The notes under the pieces are model-generated. The model did no database searches. It had not been told where the DNA came from and worked only from the letters and a program-made list of their open reading frames with translations. A stretch of 64,000 nt of DNA from Nostoc sp. S4 (lineage in GTDB: Bacteria; Cyanobacteriota; Cyanobacteriia; Cyanobacteriales; Nostocaceae): the NCBI GenBank assembly GCA_029379225.1, contig JAQYWR010000011.1, forward strand, positions 1-64,000, written 5' to 3'. The first letter of the stretch is position 1. The number at the start of each line of letters is the position of its first letter. The position numbers and the translations under genes are program-made. Shown here one piece after another: positions 16,778 to 49,604 of this stretch.

Positions 16778-17131
16778 ATGAATACTAAAATTATTGCTTT
16801 CTTGGGAATTACGGCGGTCTTTGCCTGCTTAGGAAGCCGAGTCTATGCACAGTCATCAGCATCAAACTCAAATCCAGAGCAATACACAAGAACTGGAGAT
16901 TCTCTAGTTGGAATTAATAATAGAACAGCCAAAGATGACTTTACAAGCTTTTTTGAGCAAACTAATTCATCAACAATTTCCAACAATAATCAAACAAACA
17001 AAAAAACTCCAACTCAAATACGCTTCAACGAATCACTATCACAGCCAGATACTTCGATTTTCCTAGAACCGGCTCAATCTGGGAATGGCAACGATGGATT
17101 ACAAATACAGTTAGATATACGCAAAGAATGA
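16778..17131 (+). CDS. Small secreted hypothetical protein
   Basis: 117 residues. The first 24 form a clear Sec signal peptide (MNTKIIAFLGITAVFACLG, cleavage expected after SRVYA). The mature part is Ser/Asn/Thr/Gln-rich, low in hydrophobics and probably disordered, with no cysteine and no recognised domain. It lies between a MITE-like repeat and the left end of the integrative element. Its promoter region is A/T-rich. Confidence 0.65.
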   Translation: MNTKIIAFLGITAVFACLGSRVYAQSSASNSNPEQYTRTGDSLVGINNRTAKDDFTSFFEQTNSSTISNNNQTNKKTPTQIRFNESLSQPDTSIFLEPAQSGNGNDGLQIQLDIRKE

Positions 17132-17290
17132 TCGGGTATAAAGATTGATACTTTAGCTTGAGTGTATGTGTCCGACGAGCGATTTATTTTACTGCTGGCT
17201 CAAATACTTAGGAATGTGGTTTAATTAATCTGCGTTCCCTAGTAAATACTTGTGCAATAATTTTGCAGTAAAATTAGTCGTCTAGATACA

Positions 17291-17340
17291 GGAGGGCTTT
17301 TTGCGATGACTCGTGTCATCATAGTGCGCCACGGTTGTTA
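17291..17340 (+). pseudogene. Original 5' end of the histidine phosphatase gene, cut off by integration
   Basis: A ribosome binding site (ggaggg, 17291-17296) and ATG at 17306 encode MTRVIIVRHG, then TGT and a TAG stop at the junction. These ten codons match the start of a histidine phosphatase (RHG motif), and their last seven match the phosphatase gene at 24812-24832. This is the native start region, now separated from the rest of its gene by the 7.5-kb element. Confidence 0.9.
17315..17335. repeat. Left attachment site core (attL), 21-bp direct repeat
   Basis: The left copy of the 21-bp repeat beginning gtcatcatagtgcgcc. It is identical to 24812-24832 and encodes VIIVRHG. The flanking bases differ (gt before and tg after here; aa before and ca after at the right copy), which defines the limits of identity. 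Confidence 0.9.
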
Positions 17341-17388
17341 GATATAATGCTTATATACTCAGTTGCTTGAAAACTGATATCCACATTT

Positions 17389-17408
17389 TGAGCATTAAGT
17401 GAGCATTA
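17389..17408 (+). promoter_or_regulatory. Putative integrase arm-type sites, left (two TGAGCATTA, 11 bp apart)
   Basis: Two identical 9-mers TGAGCATTA at 17389-17397 and 17400-17408. The same motif with one or two changes occurs in pairs, again exactly 11 bp apart, near the right end. The left pair overlaps the integrase start, so integrase binding could also repress its own gene; this is inference. Confidence 0.75.
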
Positions 17409-18817
17409 TGGTAAACAGCAGTAAAACCCCTACCGGAAAGGCTAAGAAAGGTCAGGTAACAGTACGTCCAGACGGAACAAGTATTAAAGCCTGCTTCCCC
17501 AGAAGTTACTTTGCTGATGGTAAACAGGTAAAACTAGGAACTGGTATTAATCCAGATGACTGGAAGGCTACGGCATCAAAGCTAGAGCGTAGGCTACAGC
17601 TAGAACTGGAAGAAGGAAAGCTCGACGATGGTCATGGACACTTCAACCTGGGGCGTTATCAAGAAATTCTTGAGGAATATGGATTAAGGGCAAAGCTGAG
17701 ATTAGTGAAGAGTGCTGAAACTTCAGATGACCAGCTACCACCTAAACCTGAAATGTCCTTAATGGAAGTGTGGGGGATGTATTGTGAGTACAGAAAAAAT
17801 GATTTAAGGGAAAGTGTTTACGAAGGTAAATATCAAGGAAGATACAGGAATTTTATTGAATCAGCAATTGAAGCTACCAAGTCAGAAGACCCGTTAAAAA
17901 TCAGAAATTGGTTGACCGAGAATAGAAGCTTGAAAACAGTTAAACTTGTACTTTCTAATTTAGAGAAAGCTTATCAACTAGGGATGAAGCAAAAGCTTTT
18001 ATCGCATAATCCTTTTGAGGGTATGGCTGAGGAGATTGTTAATAAAGGTGCTAAAGGTAAAACTCAGGATGAAGTAGATATAGAAAATGATGATGATGTA
18101 CTAGATAGAGGGAAGGCTTACACATGGGATGAAGCGCAAATAATACTTGAGTATGTGCAAGAAAAATACCCTCACTGGTACAACTATTTAAAGTTTAAAT
18201 TCCTTACTGGATGTAGAACAGGTGAAGGAATAGCTTTGATGTGGTGTGATGTTGAATGGGATAAAGAACGGGTTTTAATTCGCAGAACTTATGACCGGAT
18301 AACCAAAAAGTTCTATCCTTTGAAAAATGACAATACATACAAAGGTGAATTAATCCGGAAGTTCCCTATACCTAAAAACGGTGAATTGTGGAATCTTTTA
18401 AAAACAATTCCTCAAGGCAAAGATAACGAAATAGTATTTAAGTCTAAATTAGGAAAAATAATTGATGACACAAATTTTAGTCAAGCATGGCGCGGGAGAA
18501 AGAATTTTAACCGCAAGGGAATAATTACCCAATTAGTAGAAGCAGAAAGGTTAAATAAGTATCTATCACCCTATAACACACGACACACATTCATCACTCA
18601 TGCAATTTTTGATTTAGGAATTGATGAGAAAGTAGTAGCTAAATGGTGTGGACATACTATTGATGTAAGCAATAAACATTATCAGGATATAGCTATTTTT
18701 GCTGAAAGAATTAATCCTGAGATACCACAGCAACAATCAGAACTTGACTTATTAAAGGAACAGTTACGACAACAGCAAGAGTTAATCAATAAACTACTTC
18801 AGGATAAGGATAAATAA
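17408..18817 (+). CDS. Tyrosine recombinase (phage-type integrase)
   Basis: 469 residues from ATG 17408; GTG 17399 is an alternative three codons earlier. An N-terminal arm-binding-like domain (VTVRPDGTSIKACFP ... LGTGINPDDW) is followed by a SAM-like core-binding domain around residues 115-215 and a catalytic domain. Catalytic residues: Arg in LTGCRTGEGIALMW (about 268), His and Arg in TRHTFITH (about 390), His in WCGHTID (about 415), and nucleophile Tyr in NKHYQDI (about 424). It should catalyse integration and excision at the 21-bp repeat. A short Gln-rich tail ends the protein, and a terminator follows. No excisionase is recognised. Confidence 0.95.
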   Translation: MVNSSKTPTGKAKKGQVTVRPDGTSIKACFPRSYFADGKQVKLGTGINPDDWKATASKLERRLQLELEEGKLDDGHGHFNLGRYQEILEEYGLRAKLRLVKSAETSDDQLPPKPEMSLMEVWGMYCEYRKNDLRESVYEGKYQGRYRNFIESAIEATKSEDPLKIRNWLTENRSLKTVKLVLSNLEKAYQLGMKQKLLSHNPFEGMAEEIVNKGAKGKTQDEVDIENDDDVLDRGKAYTWDEAQIILEYVQEKYPHWYNYLKFKFLTGCRTGEGIALMWCDVEWDKERVLIRRTYDRITKKFYPLKNDNTYKGELIRKFPIPKNGELWNLLKTIPQGKDNEIVFKSKLGKIIDDTNFSQAWRGRKNFNRKGIITQLVEAERLNKYLSPYNTRHTFITHAIFDLGIDEKVVAKWCGHTIDVSNKHYQDIAIFAERINPEIPQQQSELDLLKEQLRQQQELINKLLQDKDK

Positions 18818-18861
18818 ACCCTTCTCACCCATAGTCCTCTAAGTATTACCTAAGAACTAAT

Positions 18862-18900
18862 AAACCCTCTAAGAATCAATATCCTGGAGGGTTATTTTTG
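18862..18900 (+). terminator. Intrinsic terminator after the integrase gene
   Basis: Stem aaccctc (18863-18869) and gagggtt (18887-18893), followed by attttt. It lies 45 bases after the integrase stop. Confidence 0.75.
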
Positions 18901-18923
18901 TTACCTTACTATTAGTTATGCAA

Positions 18924-19217
18924 TCAATCCCATACAGGTGTTTGCAAACCAATAAAATACACCAACTGTTTAAAATCACAGGGCATAGGAGGGATGACTA
19001 TGGCTGTAGGATATTCCCTTCTAATTAGCGGATAATATTCCTTCTCTACATCTACACTGTAGCCATCGTAATGACCGTAAATGCAATGAAGTATTGCATA
19101 AGCCATATCATGGTCAGTGCATAGGTAATAGATATTAAAACGAGGTCTTCCTATGCCCGTAGGTATGGTTACTCGCCATAAATCATACCTTGGTTCTGCA
19201 ACTAAAGATTGAGTCAT
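18924..19217 (-). CDS. Hypothetical protein of the integrative element (97 aa)
   Basis: 97 residues starting MTQSLVAEPRYDLWRVTIP, rich in Tyr, Pro and Ile, with a central YYLCTDHDMAYAILHCIYGHYDG segment. There is no membrane segment and no family that I recognise. It lies 36 bases downstream of the gene at 19254-19631 on the same strand, so the two are probably cotranscribed. It converges with the integrase gene and has its own stop inside the spacer. Confidence 0.65.
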   Translation of the reverse strand: MTQSLVAEPRYDLWRVTIPTGIGRPRFNIYYLCTDHDMAYAILHCIYGHYDGYSVDVEKEYYPLIRREYPTAIVIPPMPCDFKQLVYFIGLQTPVWD

Positions 19218-19253
19218 GATGTTTTCCCAGTCGTCTAAATATTTCCTGCCTGA

Positions 19254-19631
19254 TTACCTAGCGAGTAACGCCATTATTTCTTCAAGCTTCATTTTCACCA
19301 TATACCAGGCTAATAACCTCTCTTGCTCGTATCTGTCAGGGTGGCTCATCCTCCTGCCTTCCAGAGAGAATTTGATTAGCGCTGCTTGTTCGTCTGTGGG
19401 TGAATTCATTTCACTTATTGCTGACTCTATTACTTGAATAGTGGCAAGTGAGGGTATTCTCAGTCCGCGCCCCTCATTCATGTGTTTAATAGCTATTATC
19501 CCAAAGGACATTAGAGCGGTAATGTAACTTGATTTGTACGCTGGACTTCCCACGGGACGAACACCGTATCGACGGCATAAGTCGCGCAATTCGGGTACAG
19601 TCTTTATTTCGAGTTCTGAACGTGTAAACAT
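19254..19631 (-). CDS. Hypothetical protein with SAP/Rho-N-like N-terminal helix pair
   Basis: About 125 residues. The N-terminus (FTRSELEIKTVPELRDLC ... GVRPVG ... KSSYITALMSF) has the helix-turn-helix spacing of SAP or Rho-N-type small DNA/RNA-binding domains (leucine, turn with Gly, Lys, then I-x-x-L). The remainder is helical (ERLLAWYMVKMKLEEIMALL). I chose ATG 19631; TTG 19649 would add six residues. Function unknown; nucleic-acid binding is inference from the pattern. Confidence 0.7.
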   Translation of the reverse strand: MFTRSELEIKTVPELRDLCRRYGVRPVGSPAYKSSYITALMSFGIIAIKHMNEGRGLRIPSLATIQVIESAISEMNSPTDEQAALIKFSLEGRRMSHPDRYEQERLLAWYMVKMKLEEIMALLAR

Positions 19632-19756
19632 GGAATTACCATTTTTCAAAGTGGTATCAGTGGTGTACTAGTTTTCCAGTCCAAGGAACACCACTGATTA
19701 AAAACTCTATTGTTTTGCTAGCAAGTGAATCAAGCCTTATTTATATTTCTACACAA

Positions 19757-19945
19757 ATGCCTAACCCGAAGGGAAACCCAGATAATTTAAAGCCAATTAA
19801 ATCTGATAGAGAAGAACCACTGACCGAGCAAGTTAACCTGAGAGTTACTAAAACTATGAAGGAGGAACTATCTACAAAAAATGACCCACCGGAATTTTGC
19901 CGTCGTGCTATCCAGGAAGCGCTAGATAAGGATAAAGGGAAGTGA
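19757..19945 (+). CDS. Small ribbon-helix-helix (CopG/Arc-like) DNA-binding protein
   Basis: 62 residues. After a polar N-terminal arm comes the order strand-helix-helix: EQVNLRVT, KTMKEELSTK, then PPEFCRRAIQEALDK. That is the layout of ribbon-helix-helix repressors, which insert a two-stranded sheet into the major groove and bind short repeated half-sites. I chose ATG 19757; an in-frame TTG at 19715 would add 14 residues of unrelated sequence. It is followed by the element's noncoding control region, whose TGTCA arrays are plausible binding sites for it (inference). Confidence 0.7.
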   Translation: MPNPKGNPDNLKPIKSDREEPLTEQVNLRVTKTMKEELSTKNDPPEFCRRAIQEALDKDKGK

Positions 19946-20072
19946 TTGTCAGGTTCACTCTGTAACTGACGTAGATGCGATGTTAGCAGACAAGAGATTA
20001 TGAGGCTTACAGGGTGATACTACCCGTTAAACGACTTGCCACAAGGGTAAGGCAACAGAAAGAATTTTTCAT

Positions 20073-20086
20073 ACAGGTTAACCTGT
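20073..20086. promoter_or_regulatory. Perfect palindrome, candidate operator
   Basis: ACAGGTTAACCTGT, a perfect 14-bp palindrome 128 bases downstream of the ribbon-helix-helix gene. Candidate binding site for a dimeric regulator; no partner identified. Confidence 0.55.
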
Positions 20087-20209
20087 CAGAATAATATTTT
20101 GTCCTAGACAGCGCTTGCAGCGGTTCACATGGTCAATAAAAAGTGGGCGTTTTGAAAACTTGCCCCGTAAATCGCCCTGAAGCCATCTGATTTTAGAATT
20201 TTCGTATGT

Positions 20210-20255
20210 AGGAAGGTAAACTATCTAGCTATGCCTTCCTGACCATCGTAGATAG
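20210..20255 (+). ncRNA. Possible H-type RNA pseudoknot
   Basis: Stem 1 pairs AGGAAGG (20210-20216) with CCTTCCT (20234-20240). Stem 2 pairs CTATCTA (20221-20227, inside the loop of stem 1) with TAGATAG (20249-20255). The loops are 4, 6 and 8 bases, compatible with a real pseudoknot. Both stems are seven perfect pairs. Strand of transcription is not known, and the complementary strand would pair equally. Confidence 0.5.
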
Positions 20256-20359
20256 CCTTTAGGGAATGTCTTAGTAAACTCATAGGTAGAGTTATTTTTT
20301 TTACGGCACAATACCCTAAGCTAAAAAAGCACTGTCCCGTGGTATTGTTTTGCGTAGAA

Positions 20360-20504
20360 CATACCTTATGTTTTTAAAGTGTCATCCTGAGATGTTATCC
20401 TGAGATGTCATTTAAAATGTCACCCTAGCAAAATATCTATACGACATATTTTAATGACATCTCAGGATGACACTTAGATATGTCACTTTCCACATAAGGG
20501 TATG
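20360..20504. repeat. TGTCA/TGACA array A, iteron-like, 12-13 bp pitch
   Basis: Pentamers start at 20380 (TGTCA), 20393 (TGTTA), 20406 (TGTCA), 20418 (TGTCA), 20442 (CGACA), 20455 (TGACA), 20468 (TGACA) and 20481 (TGTCA). Steps are 13, 13, 12, 24, 13, 13 and 13. The left four are direct and the next three inverted, so the array is near-symmetric about 20432. It is flanked by inverted repeats CATACCTTATG (20360-20370) and CATAAGGGTATG (20493-20504). A 19-bp perfect inverted repeat lies at 20377-20395 and 20457-20475. Confidence 0.85.
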
Positions 20505-20520
20505 ACTACGCCATAAAGAA

Positions 20521-20552
20521 AGCCTAGCAATAATATGCTAGGCATAAGTATT
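20521..20552 (-). terminator. Intrinsic terminator for the minus-strand operon
   Basis: Perfect 8-bp stem gcctagca/tgctaggc (20522-20529 and 20536-20543), followed on the minus strand by tttcttt. It lies about 80 bases after the stop of the gene at 20622-21350. Confidence 0.7.
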
Positions 20553-20562
20553 GATTGGATTT

Positions 20563-20598
20563 AGCATCCCTTTAGTGATTGCAGTCGCTAAGGGGATA
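20563..20598 (-). terminator. Second hairpin after the minus-strand operon
   Basis: Stem catcccttta/taaggggat with a loop of about 15 bases, just downstream of the operon on the minus strand. It probably acts with the neighbouring hairpin as a double terminator; no strong U-run. Confidence 0.45.
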
Positions 20599-20621
20599 TT
20601 TTGCTAGCCGTCAATAAATGG

Positions 20622-21350
20622 CTACAGAGTATTTTTTTCTTTGTGTGCATCTTTCAACGCCCTATGAATACGTTCGTCTACACCGCCTTTACGGTATCGA
20701 GAGAAATGTTTCTTCACTTTCGCTACTAGTAGTAATTCGTCAGAGTCCTCAATATAGTTCAATCCCACATCTCTGTTACCCTGTATCACTTCTAATTCCT
20801 TCAGTTCTTTTGCAGTTTTGTGTACTGCTGCTAACGTCAACTTATTGTGAGTAGATGCACAACTGAATCCGTAAGTTTTACAGGCATACTCAAAATTAGT
20901 GTGCTGTTCCCTGAGATACTTTCGTCGTGCTTCCCACCGTTCTCTATTTGCGGTAGTTTGTTGCTCATACTGTTGTTCCGTCTTGGACGCACCGAATGTA
21001 TTATCGCAACGACGGTGCAACGTCTCTTGCATACACGCTGCTACTAACGCTTGTGCTTTGGTATTAGCCTTATATGCTTGACTCAACCAGAAACTTGAAG
21101 CAACTTCGATAGATAGGATATTAGCTGGCTTGTTACTACCTTCTACAGCCGTTTCTGAAAATTCGGAACCATTTCCAGGTAAGGCTTTGACCACTTTGGT
21201 ACGCAGAAAATTGAAAATACAAGAACTTGACACATTTACAGCATCGGCTACTTGAGACTGACTCATCACATACTCACCATCTGGCATTTGAAATACTTCT
21301 ACTTCGATACCCGCGACTTGAATTGACGCACGTTTAGCTTTAATTGTCAT
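20622..21350 (-). CDS. Putative phage-antirepressor-like DNA-binding protein of the element
   Basis: 242 residues. The N-terminal region contains a helix-turn-helix-like stretch (EYVMSQSQVADAVNVSSSCI) and then FNFLRTK, resembling the start of phage regulatory and antirepressor proteins. A helical segment follows (SFWLSQAYKANTKAQALVAACMQETL with a related internal pattern) and a basic C-terminus with coiled-coil character. I do not recognise a named domain. Its start is two bases after the stop of the upstream gene, so translation is probably coupled. Likely regulator; confidence in that role is moderate. Confidence 0.65.
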   Translation of the reverse strand: MTIKAKRASIQVAGIEVEVFQMPDGEYVMSQSQVADAVNVSSSCIFNFLRTKVVKALPGNGSEFSETAVEGSNKPANILSIEVASSFWLSQAYKANTKAQALVAACMQETLHRRCDNTFGASKTEQQYEQQTTANRERWEARRKYLREQHTNFEYACKTYGFSCASTHNKLTLAAVHKTAKELKELEVIQGNRDVGLNYIEDSDELLLVAKVKKHFSRYRKGGVDERIHRALKDAHKEKNTL

Positions 21351-21352
21351 AA

Positions 21353-21664
21353 TTAACCCTCCCGAATATTTTCTTGGTTGTCGGCGTAAATTTTGGTAGC
21401 ATCAATCCCTAATCTGTCTAGGAAGAATCTAAGCGTTGAGACTAACTTGCGTGCTTGCTCATAACGTGGTGAAGTACTCTTTTCCTCACAAGTCTTTTCC
21501 CACATCTCAACCTCCTTCTCTAGGTCAATTAAGAGTTGATAGATGTCGTCTAACTTGTTAGCGATAGAGATTGGGACATATTTCTGCATTACCTCACCAG
21601 CGTATTTTTTCTTCCTACCTGAACCTGGTTTTCTCGTGCCACTACTTGGAACACCTCTAGGCAT
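21353..21664 (-). CDS. Small basic hypothetical protein of the element
   Basis: About 103 residues from ATG 21664 (MPRGVPSSGTRKPGSGRKKKY). The first 20 residues are Gly/Arg/Lys-rich like an AT-hook or nucleic-acid-binding tail. The rest is helical (NKLDDIYQLLIDLEKEVEMW) and could form a coiled coil. An upstream in-frame start would add only six residues. The ending GEVMQKYVPISIANKLD block resembles small proteins beside phage regulators, but no family is certain. Its stop is coupled to the next gene. Confidence 0.65.
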   Translation of the reverse strand: MPRGVPSSGTRKPGSGRKKKYAGEVMQKYVPISIANKLDDIYQLLIDLEKEVEMWEKTCEEKSTSPRYEQARKLVSTLRFFLDRLGIDATKIYADNQENIREG

Positions 21665-21693
21665 AGATAAAATCCTCATCATTTTAAAATTTA

Positions 21694-21987
21694 TTACATT
21701 TCCGCTAAAGGGCGGTCACTTATCATTACTTCTATTAGGTCGTAGCAGTCTTCACCACAGAAAGAAGGTGCTATTTTTCCTTTGTTCTTTGCAATGGTAT
21801 TAGAGGCGGTAAATTCCCAGTGACCGCCATTGTGGTCTATACGGTAAACTTGTTCTGTGATTATTCCACTAAAATGAAGCGTAAAATTTTCGGATTCCTG
21901 TATCCAATAAATACGTTGTCCTAACTTGTAGAGAGGCGCGGCAACTAATACAGTAGAAGGATGTACAGATAGTTGAATAGCTGACAT
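21694..21987 (-). CDS. Hypothetical protein of the element (97 aa)
   Basis: 97 residues starting MSAIQLSVHPSTVLVAAP. A central beta-rich segment (LYKLGQRIYWIQES ... FSGIITEQVYRID) suggests a small SH3-like barrel; this is a guess from strand pattern only. A strong ribosome binding site (taggagcg) lies nine bases before the ATG. It is 29 bases upstream of the next gene in the same direction. Family not recognised. Confidence 0.65.
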   Translation of the reverse strand: MSAIQLSVHPSTVLVAAPLYKLGQRIYWIQESENFTLHFSGIITEQVYRIDHNGGHWEFTASNTIAKNKGKIAPSFCGEDCYDLIEVMISDRPLAEM

Positions 21988-22100
21988 AATAATTACGCTC
22001 CTAGCGTAGTAATGGTACGTAAAAGAGAAGTCGTCATCGTCTGAGTTGTAACCTCATTCGGTGGCGCGTTTTATTGTGTGTATAAACGAGAGAAATTCAA

Positions 22101-22604
22101 TCAATAGTTGAACAAATGTCGGTCGGGGTCGTGACCACTGTCTAGACTATTCCGAACGGCATCAATCTGATTTTTCAGGGATTGATAAGCTTTATCCAGT
22201 TTATTGAACTGTTCAATCATTGTTTGTGGTGTTAGCTCATCCGTTAATCCAAATACAAGCCATCCCAAGTCACGAGACTTGCTAATCAATTCAAATGCAT
22301 CAGTCTGGATAACCTCTAGTTCGTAGTCATCATTTTTGAGCAACTCTTTGCTTATTTCAGTGGACACATCTTGTGCGGTATTACTAGCGCTTTTTAGCGA
22401 GTTGGCTATCACTAAAGCATATTCCCAGTAAGCCTTGCCGTTGTACCCCCTCAATGCTGTAGCTTTTACGAATGAGTTACCGTCAGACGGTAAGCGATTG
22501 AGTAATACGTTATTGCAGAATCCTTTAGTAAATTCTGTGTCTGACAATTCATTGAAGCCTAAAAGGGATTTTATCTGTATCTTGATTTCGTTGATAGTTG
22601 ACAT
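22101..22604 (-). CDS. Hypothetical protein of the element (167 aa), first gene of the minus-strand operon
   Basis: 167 residues starting MSTINEIKIQIKSLLGFNEL. Mostly alpha-helical, with a C-terminal helical segment (TMIEQFNKLDKAYQSLKNQI) and no membrane segments. No family recognised. It heads a run of four minus-strand genes. Its promoter region holds two copies of a 22-bp repeat (22693-22745), likely operators for this operon. Confidence 0.65.
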   Translation of the reverse strand: MSTINEIKIQIKSLLGFNELSDTEFTKGFCNNVLLNRLPSDGNSFVKATALRGYNGKAYWEYALVIANSLKSASNTAQDVSTEISKELLKNDDYELEVIQTDAFELISKSRDLGWLVFGLTDELTPQTMIEQFNKLDKAYQSLKNQIDAVRNSLDSGHDPDRHLFNY

Positions 22605-22692
22605 GAACCTAGATCGAGTGTGTGTGTACTAGGCATCAACAGCGCTATGGAATCGATTAATCTCTGAATCCCTTGCTGTTGTTTGCTTATAT

Positions 22693-22745
22693 TATTTATA
22701 ACAGATAAATAAAAAACGTCAACTATTTATAACAGATAAATAAAA
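22693..22745. repeat. Two 22-bp direct repeats, candidate operators
   Basis: Two identical 22-bp copies starting tatttataacagataaat, at 22693-22714 and 22724-22745, 31 bp apart (about three helical turns). Each copy contains an imperfect palindrome (ttatttat/ataaataa). They lie 90-140 bases upstream of the minus-strand operon start, which suits a repressor binding to the same face of the helix. Confidence 0.75.
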
Positions 22746-22939
22746 CAATAAGCTACAACATATACTGTGACTGTGTTTCAAGGTAAGACTTGGTTTATAT
22801 TCTCAATAAGAGCTTGTAGGTATGTTTTTTAGTTATGTTTTTAAGACTTTTTGTAAGCTGCAATCCTTAGCGCATAAGGTCATTCTCAATAATTTGCAAC
22901 AGACATTTTGGCGATACTGGGCACACTTATGTTTTGAAG

Positions 22940-22982
22940 TGACATATTTAGGTGTCATTTTTAATGACATTTTTAGATGTCA
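22940..22982. repeat. TGTCA/TGACA array B, 12-13 bp pitch
   Basis: Four pentamers: TGACA 22940, TGTCA 22953, TGACA 22965, TGTCA 22978. Steps are 13, 12 and 13, with orientation alternating. It lies about 107-149 bases upstream of the gene at 23089 and has the same pitch as arrays A and C. Confidence 0.85.
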
Positions 22983-23088
22983 CCTGGAAACAATACACGG
23001 GACGCCCGCCAGTTGAACTTTTCACGTTCAAGCGTAAAAAGTCAGCACCCTCAAATGACCTAACAATACACACAAGGATTGAATAAAA

Positions 23089-23742
23089 ATGAGTAGATAT
23101 CACGACGCAAGAGCAGAAGCAATATTGCATCAACTAGATACAATCTGGAAAGAATTTAGGTCAAACCCAATTACTGTAAAAGCTACGCATCAAGGAATTC
23201 ATGGAACGCTGCCTTGGGATGAGGCAAAAATGTTGAGCGATCGCTGGGAAGAATTAGCTGACAACTTTCAACACAAAAGAGACGTTATCCTAGAATCTCA
23301 ATTAAAGCAAGATATTAGCGGTATTGAATGGATCGCAAGCTCGTACGGTAATATAAGCATTGAGTTACCAAGAATACACGAACAACTGAAAGCGATCGCG
23401 ACAGACAAACAAATTCTTACGCAATCTAAATCTTCAGCACTGAATTTTCTTACTCACTGGCATCAAGCTTTCAAAGTATGGCAATACCTTGAAAGAGATT
23501 GGAAGCAAGTACAATGGAATGATTTTTGTATTGAATGCTCAAATCGAGAATGGCTTGAGATATGGGTTGATGATTTTATTTACAACGTTACTGAGTTAGA
23601 TGGAACAATAACAGAATATCCTGTTTTCGCTATCAACGCTTGCTGCTATTGGGGAGATCCAATAGAGGCAAATAAAACAGAATTCTTTCCAAGATCGGGT
23701 TTAACAAGCTTTCAATTTAACAACTCTATTCCTATTCTCTAA
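23089..23742 (+). CDS. Hypothetical protein of the element (217 aa)
   Basis: 217 residues starting MSRYHDARAEAILHQLDTIW. The N-terminal half is helical and polar; the C-terminal half is rich in Trp and aromatic residues (WLEIWVDDFIYNV, INACCYWGDPIE). No family is recognised, and there are no membrane segments. It contains HIP1-like gcgatcgc sites, unlike most of the element, so it may have resided in cyanobacteria for a long time. It is 75 bases upstream of the BRO gene and may be cotranscribed with it. Confidence 0.65.
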   Translation: MSRYHDARAEAILHQLDTIWKEFRSNPITVKATHQGIHGTLPWDEAKMLSDRWEELADNFQHKRDVILESQLKQDISGIEWIASSYGNISIELPRIHEQLKAIATDKQILTQSKSSALNFLTHWHQAFKVWQYLERDWKQVQWNDFCIECSNREWLEIWVDDFIYNVTELDGTITEYPVFAINACCYWGDPIEANKTEFFPRSGLTSFQFNNSIPIL

Positions 23743-23817
23743 CTAAGTAATCACAATGCCACAGTAGCAGGTTTTGACATTTTTTTAATATATACATAAA
23801 CCTGAGAAGAACAACAA

Positions 23818-24417
23818 ATGAGTAACTTATCCGTCTTTAACTTCGAGTCACACGAAATACGCTTTGTAGGCACAGCAGATAAACCTTGGTGGGTGGGTGC
23901 TGATATTTGTAGAGGGTTAGAACTGTCTAATCCGTCTATGGCAATTAGTAAGCTTGATGACGACGAAAAAACACATGACATCAGCATTCCTGATGTCACC
24001 GGAAAATTCAGCGGTAGTAGGGTACAAAAAGTTTGGTGTGTTAATGAGTCAGGCGTATACTCGCTTATTTTCCTTAGTCGCAAACCGCAAGCAAAGCGCT
24101 TCAAGAAGTGGCTTACATCGGAAATCCTTCCATCCATCCGCAAAACTGGAAGCTATGCCAGCGCAAATTGCCAACACACCACCACTGTTCACGCACTTGC
24201 TGAACTACAAGACGCTGAGACTAAAACGCGTAATAACATTGCCAGACTTGAGCGTGAATTGAAGTCAGAGCAAGTAAAACTGCAAGACATACAGAAACAG
24301 CAATTGGTGGTAGCGAAAGCTTTTAATGATGCTAATCCTGGCATGGTGCAACAGGCAATTGCTGTGGCAAGGATACTCGATAAGGCTAAGGCAAACAACA
24401 AGTATCTTTCTGTGTAG
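23818..24417 (+). CDS. BRO-family (Bro-N domain) phage antirepressor-type protein
   Basis: 199 residues. Residues 1-115 match the Bro-N pattern: FNFESHEIRFVG, WWVGADICRGL, ISKLDDDEK, VNESGVYSLIFLSRKPQAK and FKKWLTSEILPSIRKTGSY. Such domains occur in phage antirepressors and in baculovirus BRO proteins; they bind DNA or repressors. The C-terminal 75 residues are a coiled coil (NNIARLERELKSEQVKL) rather than the usual KilAC/ANT domain. ATG 23818 is the clear start. It ends exactly where TGTCA array C begins. Confidence 0.92.
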   Translation: MSNLSVFNFESHEIRFVGTADKPWWVGADICRGLELSNPSMAISKLDDDEKTHDISIPDVTGKFSGSRVQKVWCVNESGVYSLIFLSRKPQAKRFKKWLTSEILPSIRKTGSYASANCQHTTTVHALAELQDAETKTRNNIARLERELKSEQVKLQDIQKQQLVVAKAFNDANPGMVQQAIAVARILDKAKANNKYLSV

Positions 24418-24473
24418 TGACATTCTAGAGTGACATGTTTTAGTGTCACTTTTAGTGTCACCTGAAAATGTCA
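24418..24473. repeat. TGTCA/TGACA array C, 12-13 bp pitch
   Basis: Five pentamers: TGACA 24418, TGACA 24431, TGTCA 24444, TGTCA 24456, TGTCA 24469. Steps are 13, 13, 12 and 13. The first overlaps the end of the BRO gene stop. It has the same pitch as arrays A and B. Confidence 0.85.
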
Positions 24474-24669
24474 TTCAGTTTTTAAGGTAGGCTACTTTCG
24501 ATTACCCTTACCCTGCCTAAAACGAAAATTGAATTTCTTTAGTTCTTATGCAAAAAATTGAGTGCAATTTTCAAAACGGCTATTGTCTACCGTAGTTGGT
24601 GAGGTTTGTTAAGTACCAGTGAGAGAATTATGGGAATATAGGATAGGGAGGAATTTACGCTCTCACTGT

Positions 24670-24766
24670 TGAGCATCAATTGAGCATCAGTGCTAAGTAT
24701 AAAAATATACCAGTTATTTATGCTCAAATACAGAGAATCAGGTAAATGAGCATTGTATGAGCATAA
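24670..24766 (+). promoter_or_regulatory. Putative integrase arm-type sites, right (two pairs plus one inverted)
   Basis: TGAGCATCA at 24670-24678 and 24681-24689, then TGAGCATTG at 24747-24755 and TGAGCATAA at 24758-24766. Both pairs have exactly 11-bp spacing, like the left pair at 17389-17408. An inverted copy (TTATGCTCA) lies at 24718-24726. The arrangement resembles the P-arm sites of phage integrases. Confidence 0.75.
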
Positions 24767-24790
24767 ATCGGAAGATGAGGGCTGAAAGTA

Positions 24791-26152
24791 TTGAATAATA
24801 AAGGTTTAAAAGTCATCATAGTGCGCCACGGTCAAAGCGGTTATAACACCGAGCGGCGTATTCAAGGGCGCACTGATGCGTCAAAATTAACCGATAAAGG
24901 TCGTAACGATGCGACTAAACTAGGCAAAGCCCTCAGTAATATTTTATTTGATGCTATTTACAGCAGTCCGTTGCAACGAGCCAAACACACAGCTGATATT
25001 ATCCACAGTGAGTTAGCTTCTCATATCGAACAGTCGGCCGTTGTGCAAGTTTCTGATTTGCTGCTAGAAATTGACCTGCCTTTATGGGAAGGAATGCTTA
25101 CAGCCCAAGTCAAGCAGGAATTAGCCGAAGACTACCGTACTTGGCACAAACGTCCCCACGAACTGCGGATGCTGCTCAATGATGAAAACGGTACAAGAGA
25201 ACATTTTCCGGTTCTGGCTTTATACGAACAAGCGCGGCAGTTTTGGCAAGAAATTTTGTCCCAGCACCAAGGCCAAACCATTCTAATTGTCGGACATAAC
25301 GGTATTAATCGCGCTCTCATCAGTACAGCATTAGAAATTCCCCCAAGTCGTTACCATTCAATACAGCAATCTAACTGTGGTATTAGCGTACTCAATTTTG
25401 CTGGAGGATTGGGGGAACCAGTGCAGCTAGAGTCTTTGAACCAGACACAACACAGCGGAGAAACTCTACCGTCATTGAGACCAGAACATCAAGGAGTAAG
25501 ATTACTGCTAGTGCGTCATGGGGAAACAGAGTGGAATCGCCAAACTAGATTTCAAGGGCAAATTGATGTTCCCCTCAACGACAACGGTAGACAGCAGTCG
25601 CAAAAAGCAAGCGAATTTTTGCAAAAAGTAGCGATCGATTATGCTGTAAGTAGCCCAATGCTACGTCCTAAAGAAACAGCAGAAATTATCTTAAAACAGC
25701 ATCCAAGTGTAAAGTTGGAATTACAAAATGGTTTAAGAGAAATCAGCCACGGACTTTGGGAAGGAAAATTAGAAACAGAAATAGAGCAAGAATTTTCAGG
25801 AGAGTTACATCGCTGGCGGTTAGTCCCAGCTGAAGTCCAAATGCCTGAAGGAGAAAATTTGCAACAGGTATGGGAACGTAGCGTTGCAGCTTGGGAATCA
25901 ATTGTGCAAACAGCATTAACTAATCAACTCAAAACCGTCTTAGTAGTAGCCCACGATGCTACGAATAAAACTTTACTTTGTCACATTCTTGGTTTATCGC
26001 TAGAAAATTTCTGGAATTTTCGTCAGGGAAATGGCGCTGTTAGTGTTATCGATTATCCTTTTGGACTAGATGCACCAGTACTACAAGCAATGAACATCAC
26101 CACTCACCTGGGTGGAGGCGTATTAGATAAAACAGCAGCCGGGGCGTTGTAG
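24791..26152 (+). CDS. Two-domain histidine phosphatase (phosphoglycerate-mutase-like)
   Basis: 453 residues with two complete histidine phosphatase domains: RHGQSGYNTERRIQGRTD near residue 12 and RHGETEWNRQTRFQGQ near residue 241. Each has its own second His (VGHNGINRAL, VAHDATNKTL) and SSPLQRA/SSPMLRP block, so both look catalytic. Cyanobacterial relatives include phosphoglycerate-mutase-like and phosphoserine-phosphatase-type enzymes; the substrate is not certain. The first seven codons (TTG AAT AAT AAA GGT TTA AAA) come from the integrative element and replace the native MTR start left at 17306. A usable RBS (gagg, 24777-24780) precedes this TTG, so expression now depends on element DNA. 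Confidence 0.9.
   Translation: MNNKGLKVIIVRHGQSGYNTERRIQGRTDASKLTDKGRNDATKLGKALSNILFDAIYSSPLQRAKHTADIIHSELASHIEQSAVVQVSDLLLEIDLPLWEGMLTAQVKQELAEDYRTWHKRPHELRMLLNDENGTREHFPVLALYEQARQFWQEILSQHQGQTILIVGHNGINRALISTALEIPPSRYHSIQQSNCGISVLNFAGGLGEPVQLESLNQTQHSGETLPSLRPEHQGVRLLLVRHGETEWNRQTRFQGQIDVPLNDNGRQQSQKASEFLQKVAIDYAVSSPMLRPKETAEIILKQHPSVKLELQNGLREISHGLWEGKLETEIEQEFSGELHRWRLVPAEVQMPEGENLQQVWERSVAAWESIVQTALTNQLKTVLVVAHDATNKTLLCHILGLSLENFWNFRQGNGAVSVIDYPFGLDAPVLQAMNITTHLGGGVLDKTAAGAL
24812..24832. repeat. Right attachment site core (attR), 21-bp direct repeat
   Basis: The right copy of the 21-bp repeat, inside the phosphatase gene and encoding VIIVRHG. Recombination with 17315-17335 would remove 7497 bp and restore MTRVIIVRHGQSGYN. 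Confidence 0.9.
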
Positions 26153-49446: not shown

Positions 49447-49604
49447 GGGCTGGGGAGAGGGGACTAGGGAGTAGGGACTGGTGACTGGGGACTAGGGAAT
49501 AAGATTAAATACTATTTTCTAATACCCAATCCCCAATACCCAATCCCCACTACCCAATCCCCATTACCCAATCCAAAATCCAAAATCTAAAATCTAAAAT
49601 TCCT
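49447..49604. repeat. Heptanucleotide repeats between tal and zwf
   Basis: Heptads of ggggact/agggact type (about 49449-49495), then C-rich cccaatc/cccatta heptads (about 49523-49572), then aaaatctaaaatcta. The first two are largely complementary and could form a hairpin. Confidence 0.8.

Follow-up and report, generated by a model that had tools for sequence, protein, structure and literature searches.

The stretch of DNA analyzed here (the window) comprises 64,000 nucleotides of Nostoc sp. S4, positions 1 to 64,000 of contig JAQYWR010000011.1, and harbors an integrative element of ~ 7.5 kb (17315-24832) in which the short palindrome TGWCA recurs in three arrays at a pitch of 12-13 bp. These arrays are real and go beyond chance. 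We give an even chance to the interpretation that they are multi-site operators of a DNA-binding protein encoded by the element, acting by stoperator-like silencing. The multi-site, element-specific operator part of this interpretation is well supported by sequence comparison with related elements; a binder, its cooperativity and the silencing are what we infer beyond it.

Palindrome arrays in the window

Array A (20380-20485) displays six exact TGWCA sites, at 20380, 20406, 20418, 20455, 20468 and 20481, and two sites that are degenerate as judged by eye (TGTTA at 20393 and CGACA at 20442), with steps of 13-13-12-(24)-13-13-13 and a site missing at the 24-base step. A preliminary description of this DNA, made from the sequence alone, had counted eight sites here, which the six exact and the two degenerate ones together make up. 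Array B (22940-22982) consists of four sites in the gap between divergent genes (TGACA at 22940, TGTCA at 22953, TGACA at 22965 and TGTCA at 22978; steps 13-12-13). Array C (24418-24473) has five (24418, 24431, 24444, 24456 and 24469; steps 13-13-12-13) and begins directly past the stop codon of a gene for a Bro-N antirepressor-like protein. All three arrays use the same pentamer, as originally described, but its use "in either orientation" amounts merely to a free central base pair, since TGWCA is an odd palindrome in which only the central base (A or T) differs between strands. Array A lies, again as described, in a 676-base gap (19946-20621) and is flanked by an inverted repeat, formed by the inward motifs CATACCTTATGT on the left (20360-20371) and ACATAAGGGTATG on the right (20492-20504). 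Array C has a right flank motif, AAGGTAGG, at 24484-24491.

The presence of three arrays at this pitch is confirmed by their coordinates and by shuffling. In 400 Markov shuffles of the window, runs of at least three sites occurred twice in total and runs of at least four never, against three and two, respectively, in the window itself. Beyond 20300-24600, the window holds no pair of TGWCA sites at a distance of 12 or 13. Equal frequency of such runs in unrelated DNA had been named as grounds for giving up the idea; a sample of 312,200 bases, taken from 20 further contigs of this genome (7.66 Mb in 119 contigs), contained not one run of at least three. Used as a DNA query against its own genome, array A matched only itself, on both strands.

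Related elements and their cores

Relatives of the element were sought in 217 genomes of the family (Nostocaceae; G numbers below) by way of its Bro-N gene and two proteins encoded on the minus strand, P242 (242 residues, 20622-21350) and P109 (109 residues, 21353-21682). Full-length P242 is found at 11 places in 9 of the 217 genomes, with shorter forms besides. Around P242 relatives, TGWCA arrays recur in G187, G105:C7 and G161, and once palindromes of any sequence at a 12-13-bp pitch were admitted, other cores emerged: ACGWCGT in G134, ATGSCAT in G144, the even-centered RTGYRCAY in G033, and the ACTT-type cores TACTTWAAGTA in G116 (two copies) and TACTTSRAGTA in G015. Weaker arrays of two to four sites are present in G105:C45, G021, G094 and G166. 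P109 relatives occur in 11 of the 217 genomes, one of them weak, and all ten strong loci carry arrays; these loci were chosen via P109 itself and the arrays then scored there. P242 is absent from six of the ten strong P109 stretches, the cores of which are TGWCA in G530, G519 and G527, of GTGTTAC type in G186, and GTAWTAC in G041 and G054. Among matches belonging to the element, those of G041 and G054 have only P109 and an integrase in common with other elements; in the G519 stretch, no integrase was seen. The Bro-N gene is present in 41 of the 217 genomes, with arrays of at least 45 bits at only 7 of the 30 loci listed, and Bro-N by itself is therefore no marker of arrays. Its search added G182 and a second region of G187 (G187b), neither of which has P109 or P242 in the stretch.

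The resulting set of cores comprises TGWCA, TGSCA, CGWCG, GTGTTAC, GTAWTAC, TGYRCA and ACTTWAAGT, with TTATTSRATAA weaker. A core is common to the arrays within one element and differs between elements, which are integrated and in some cases phage-like, in others small like that of the window. Throughout these relatives the pitch of 12-13 bp is kept while the spacers vary. Loss of the pitch in related elements would have spoken against the preliminary description, and its general idea of a protein assembling on spaced sites gains support from what the related sequences have in common. In G105:C45, G015 and G116, arrays occupy orthologous gaps with different cores, which suggests that the sites of an element changed together. 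G105 contains two elements with different cores in one genome, which makes it improbable that both are read by a protein of the host.

An array usually consists of three to six short palindromes, the centers of which are 12 or 13 bp apart; the window element has three arrays, and an element can have up to seven, as in G187. Arrays lie mostly in the gaps of convergent, divergent or co-directional genes, several directly after a stop codon; in G015 and G116, they occupy operon gaps of 62-71 bp. Many are bounded on both sides by the inward flank motif ATACCCTT. This motif is matched in at least seven of eight letters by 26 of the 74 flanks of 37 arrays, where shuffling expects 0.9; the count covers elements with TG-, CG- and GT-cores, without G116, G015, G033, G182 and G187b, and some array ends were set by hand.

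To compare element and control stretches, arrays were counted by a four-site score, with overlap judged against open reading frames (ORFs) of at least 110 residues and the window counted as its 7.5 kb. At 44 bits, the 22 element-bearing stretches (405,235 bases) contain 64 arrays, 58 of them outside these ORFs; at 48 bits, they contain 38, with 36 outside. The 44 control stretches (703,893 bases) display 7 arrays at 44 bits, 2 at 48 and 0 at 50, and the rest of the window beyond the element has none by this score. Excluded from the controls are L081, L082 and L088, which lie beside array elements (arrays belonging to the G033 and G116 elements fall within L082 and L088); L164 (G036) is included, even though it may itself be an array element. 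At 48 bits, five of the 22 element stretches (G186, G015, G105C45, G021 and G166) have no array by either count, and the single array of G094 lies inside an ORF.

Three further loci were noted in the course of these searches. L164 (G036:C251) has AGTCCAACTA-type repeats at a 12-bp pitch near a partial P242 match and is probably a further array-bearing element. L160 (G009:C4, a contig of 5532 bases) encodes a distant P109 relative and a 983-residue protein and contains GGTCA repeats spaced by 13 bp; this contig is perhaps a plasmid that makes use of a related protein. On G187:C1, the regions L225 and L037, ~ 130 kb apart, encode identical Bro-N, AntA-like and 89-residue proteins, and TGWCA arrays are found in both. 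Either two related elements or a single one split by rearrangement could account for this.

Proposed mode of action and candidate readers

In the mechanism that we propose, a symmetric dimer would bind each palindromic site, and neighboring dimers would join into a short filament, with the flank motif as its cap. Such a filament would block or silence transcription across gene boundaries in the manner of phage stoperators. An antirepressor-type partner would then undo the silencing, and the Bro-N or AntA proteins, which are present in many array elements, might serve in this role.

Stoperators of cluster A mycobacteriophages (L5, TipsytheTRex) are many repressor sites in short intergenic spaces, with a motif that differs between related phages (PMC9283540, PMC6550527). 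The likeness lies in sites dispersed over the gaps of one element and in element-specific motifs; the dispersal, which concerns the placing of the sites alone, is seen in the three arrays of the window element and the seven of G187. In contrast, a stoperator is a lone asymmetric site of 13 bp to which a monomer binds, mostly in one orientation relative to transcription, whereas the Nostoc-type arrays consist of three to six palindromic sites at a fixed pitch, with inverted flank motifs and in gaps of varying orientation. Single, asymmetric, oriented sites are thus not what the arrays display.

P109, with a basic N-terminal arm and helices, is in our view the most likely reader of the arrays in the window element, a tentative choice that is rather more apt to be wrong than right. 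It is favored by the arrays present at each of its ten strong loci, six of which lack P242 in the stretch. Its identity tracks the core weakly, with a mean of 0.64 in 16 same-core pairs and 0.57 in 29 others (103 of 2000 label shuffles, 10 proteins). At the level of sequence, the link between P109 and the core is only suggestive.

Several points weigh against stoperator-like silencing and against P109 as its agent. The association between P109 and the core barely stands out from chance. No P109 was detected in the array stretches of G033, G116a/b, G015, G105C45, G021, G094, G134, G161, G187b and G182, and G166 has a distant relative only. With P109 missing from this many array stretches, there is no single reader common to all, and P109 as the sole reader for all elements is untenable. 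Some of the stretches that lack P109 have ribbon-helix-helix (RHH)-type proteins, and that of G161 a KfrA-type protein. The cores of G182 and G186 are similar, yet P109 is present only in G186. Its AlphaFold2 model has a predicted local distance difference test (pLDDT) score of 65.8 with no confident fold, and a search of solved structures returned no significant relative (sole match, E 0.53). Since some arrays are located close to the starts of genes and others where convergent genes meet, a block of elongation is only one reading of their action. Finally, 6 of the 64 arrays at 44 bits overlap ORFs, two of them clearly chance repeats in genes; the matches of G105C45 and G094 at this score are chance repeats inside genes, their own arrays being weaker.

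A separate observation concerns L041:1434-2018 and L047:6644-7063, where the 'SERYKYV..' motif from the C-terminus of P109 is combined with other N-terminal parts, as though an exchange of the DNA-reading portion had taken place.

Alternatively, P242 might read the arrays and compact or silence the element as a nucleoid-like protein, which we consider unlikely. Intergenic arrays of at least 44 bits are found at 8 of the 11 full-length P242 places, the remaining three (G105C45, G021 and G094) having the weaker arrays of two to four sites, and in many elements an array lies downstream of the P242 gene. P242 has a Bro-N/KilA-N-like N-terminal part, a helical C-terminal part and a stretch at residues ~ 36-80 that is variable by eye. 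Its AlphaFold2 model (pLDDT 76.8, predicted template modeling score 0.56) points to a DNA-binding type of fold, in that Foldseek matches it to DdrC of Deinococcus and to phage KilA-N/Bro-N antirepressors. These matches are weak, however, the best in the PDB having an E of 2.2e-3 and template modeling scores of 0.25-0.31; there is no Pfam match, and P242 has no significant relative by sequence in the PDB (sole match, E 0.49). We know of no operator arrays for DdrC. Further evidence against P242 comes from the six array-bearing P109 loci without P242 in the stretch: five of these genomes have no match listed at 1e-25, and in G041 there is a short form on another contig. P242 identity does not track the core (1594 of 2000 label shuffles, 14 proteins). 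In the G116 pair, two elements of one genome with 97.5% identity over 9.7 kb, the arrays have stayed the same although the P242 proteins share only 52% identity. The G116 pair and the array stretches without P242 weaken the case for it as the only reader. Between the two copies (L040, G116:C1 1049000-1068500, and L042, G116:C1 6150000-6169500), the P242 genes match at the DNA level over only 83 bases, as if the gene had been exchanged.

Even less likely, we believe, is an RHH protein as the reader, with different RHH subfamilies serving different elements. RHH dimers fit short palindromic sites. The window element encodes a 62-residue 'MPNPKG' family protein (19757-19945, plus strand), taken in the preliminary description to be an RHH protein that reads the arrays. 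The family is also present in G105C45, G116a/b, G166 and G527, whereas in G033 a protein resembles RHH_5 (8.5e-4, short of the Pfam cut-off) and G182 and G187b have proteins that look like RHH by eye. The 62-residue family is, however, widespread, occurring in 95 of the 217 genomes with eight matches in the window genome, and arrays of at least 45 bits were found at only 2 of the 30 best-scoring loci listed, with ~ 1.5 kb read on each side. This speaks against the earlier assignment and leads us to reject the 62-residue protein as a general reader. It has no match in Pfam, PHROG or the PDB. The family was not found in the array-bearing stretches analyzed from G187a, G105C7, G144 and G134; G187, G105 and G134 carry copies elsewhere in the genome, from which the protein may be supplied in trans. 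In the stretches of G105C7, G144, G530, G519, G186, G041 and G054, no RHH protein was noticed, no general RHH profile having been run there, and P109 might be a divergent RHH.

A known system of this kind is omega/ParB of pSM19035 on parS, in which a small dimer occupies short repeats of either orientation and needs four or more sites (PMC9499535). The occurrence of short repeats in both orientations is the likeness. The parS system differs in having contiguous 7-bp repeats and a ParA partner, whereas here the pitch is 12-13 bp and the spacers are free. Contiguous 7-bp repeats are not seen in the arrays, and of ten element proteins scanned against Pfam, none passed the cut-off as a ParA-like or replication protein; the element does have an RHH-like gene, of a family that lies mostly away from arrays at the loci listed. 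The earlier suggestion that array A could be an origin or partition site is at odds with up to seven arrays per element in gaps of every orientation. Nor do several arrays per element, palindromic sites and the lack of a Rep among the same ten proteins fit an iteron origin, in which a single cluster of direct repeats adjoins a Rep gene.

The arrays could also act in the transcript, by forming intergenic RNA hairpins, which we regard as very improbable. Several arrays of the ACTT class are exact inverted repeats by eye (three-site arrays in operon gaps of G015 and of G116, slots 1 and 2), and a hairpin may be formed in this class, to judge by the repeats. In the TGWCA class, however, mirror pairs are complementary at the central base in 25 of 47 cases, which is the chance level. 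The paired flanks of one array match at 12.7 of 30 positions, compared with 12.5 of 30 for flanks of other arrays of the element (p = 0.36, 44 arrays). Flanks that do not co-vary and central bases that are not mirror-complementary argue for protein sites rather than hairpins, and on these two tests we reject the RNA hairpin for the TGWCA class. Rfam gave no match at the gathering score in 17000-25200.

A role of the arrays as arm-type sites bound by the integrase is scarcely credible. The integrase does share its elements with arrays, and in several an array lies directly past the integrase gene. Four different cores, however, accompany integrases that are 70-80% identical (G105C7, G144, G134 and G186), the integrase of the window shares 73% identity with its counterpart in G116a, where the core is ACTTWAAGT, the up to seven arrays lie far from the element ends, and integrase identity does not track the core (724 of 2000 label shuffles, 11 proteins). 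Similar integrases with different cores lead us to reject this reader.

Returning to multi-site operators, a broader proposal, to which we give slightly less than an even chance, is that the arrays represent a system, not described before, by which Nostocales phages and the small elements related to them exert regulation or immunity across the whole element. It would combine a fixed 12-13-bp protein array, inverted flank caps and an exchangeable core switched in concert, giving each element its own address code; small elements might thereby come under the control of larger phages or evade it. In the literature, no description of such arrays was recognized at the level of titles and abstracts, with most subscription journals outside the coverage. 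If the proposal is true, cyanobacterial mobile elements possess a multi-site switch, an analogue of stoperators in which palindrome arrays are the building material and a single scaffold supports about eight natural specificities. It would offer a way to study the joint change of a repressor's specificity and all its sites, and how elements in the same genome avoid cross-talk, and could provide orthogonal operators for cyanobacterial genetics.

The element and its other genes

The element is delimited by an exact 21-bp direct repeat with copies at 17315-17335 and 24812-24832. The right copy falls in the 5' part of what we take to be a phosphoglycerate-mutase-like gene, and the different array-bearing element of G105:C45 (L038) adjoins the same gene. 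The integrase is a tyrosine recombinase encoded on the plus strand at 17399-18817 (Pfam Phage_integrase, 5.6e-10; PHROG integrase, 6.4e-33). The Bro-N antirepressor-like protein, also on the plus strand (23818-24417), matches Pfam Bro-N at 8.7e-25 and PHROG anti-repressor Ant at 1.2e-49; its domain scores 87.6 bits against a curated cut-off of 25.6, which places it in the family. The element also encodes small proteins without an assigned function. PADLOC found nothing.

By search, relatives of the element belong to Nostoc, Komarekiella, Desmonostoc and similar genera. None was found in viral contigs or in the phage collection, and among plasmids, seven records gave partial P242 matches. Upstream of the gene at 22101-22604, a 22-nt exact direct repeat with a 31-nt spacing (22693-22745) is possibly the operator of that gene. 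Outside the element, the window contains a 14-bp tandem repeat in four copies at 49523-49570.

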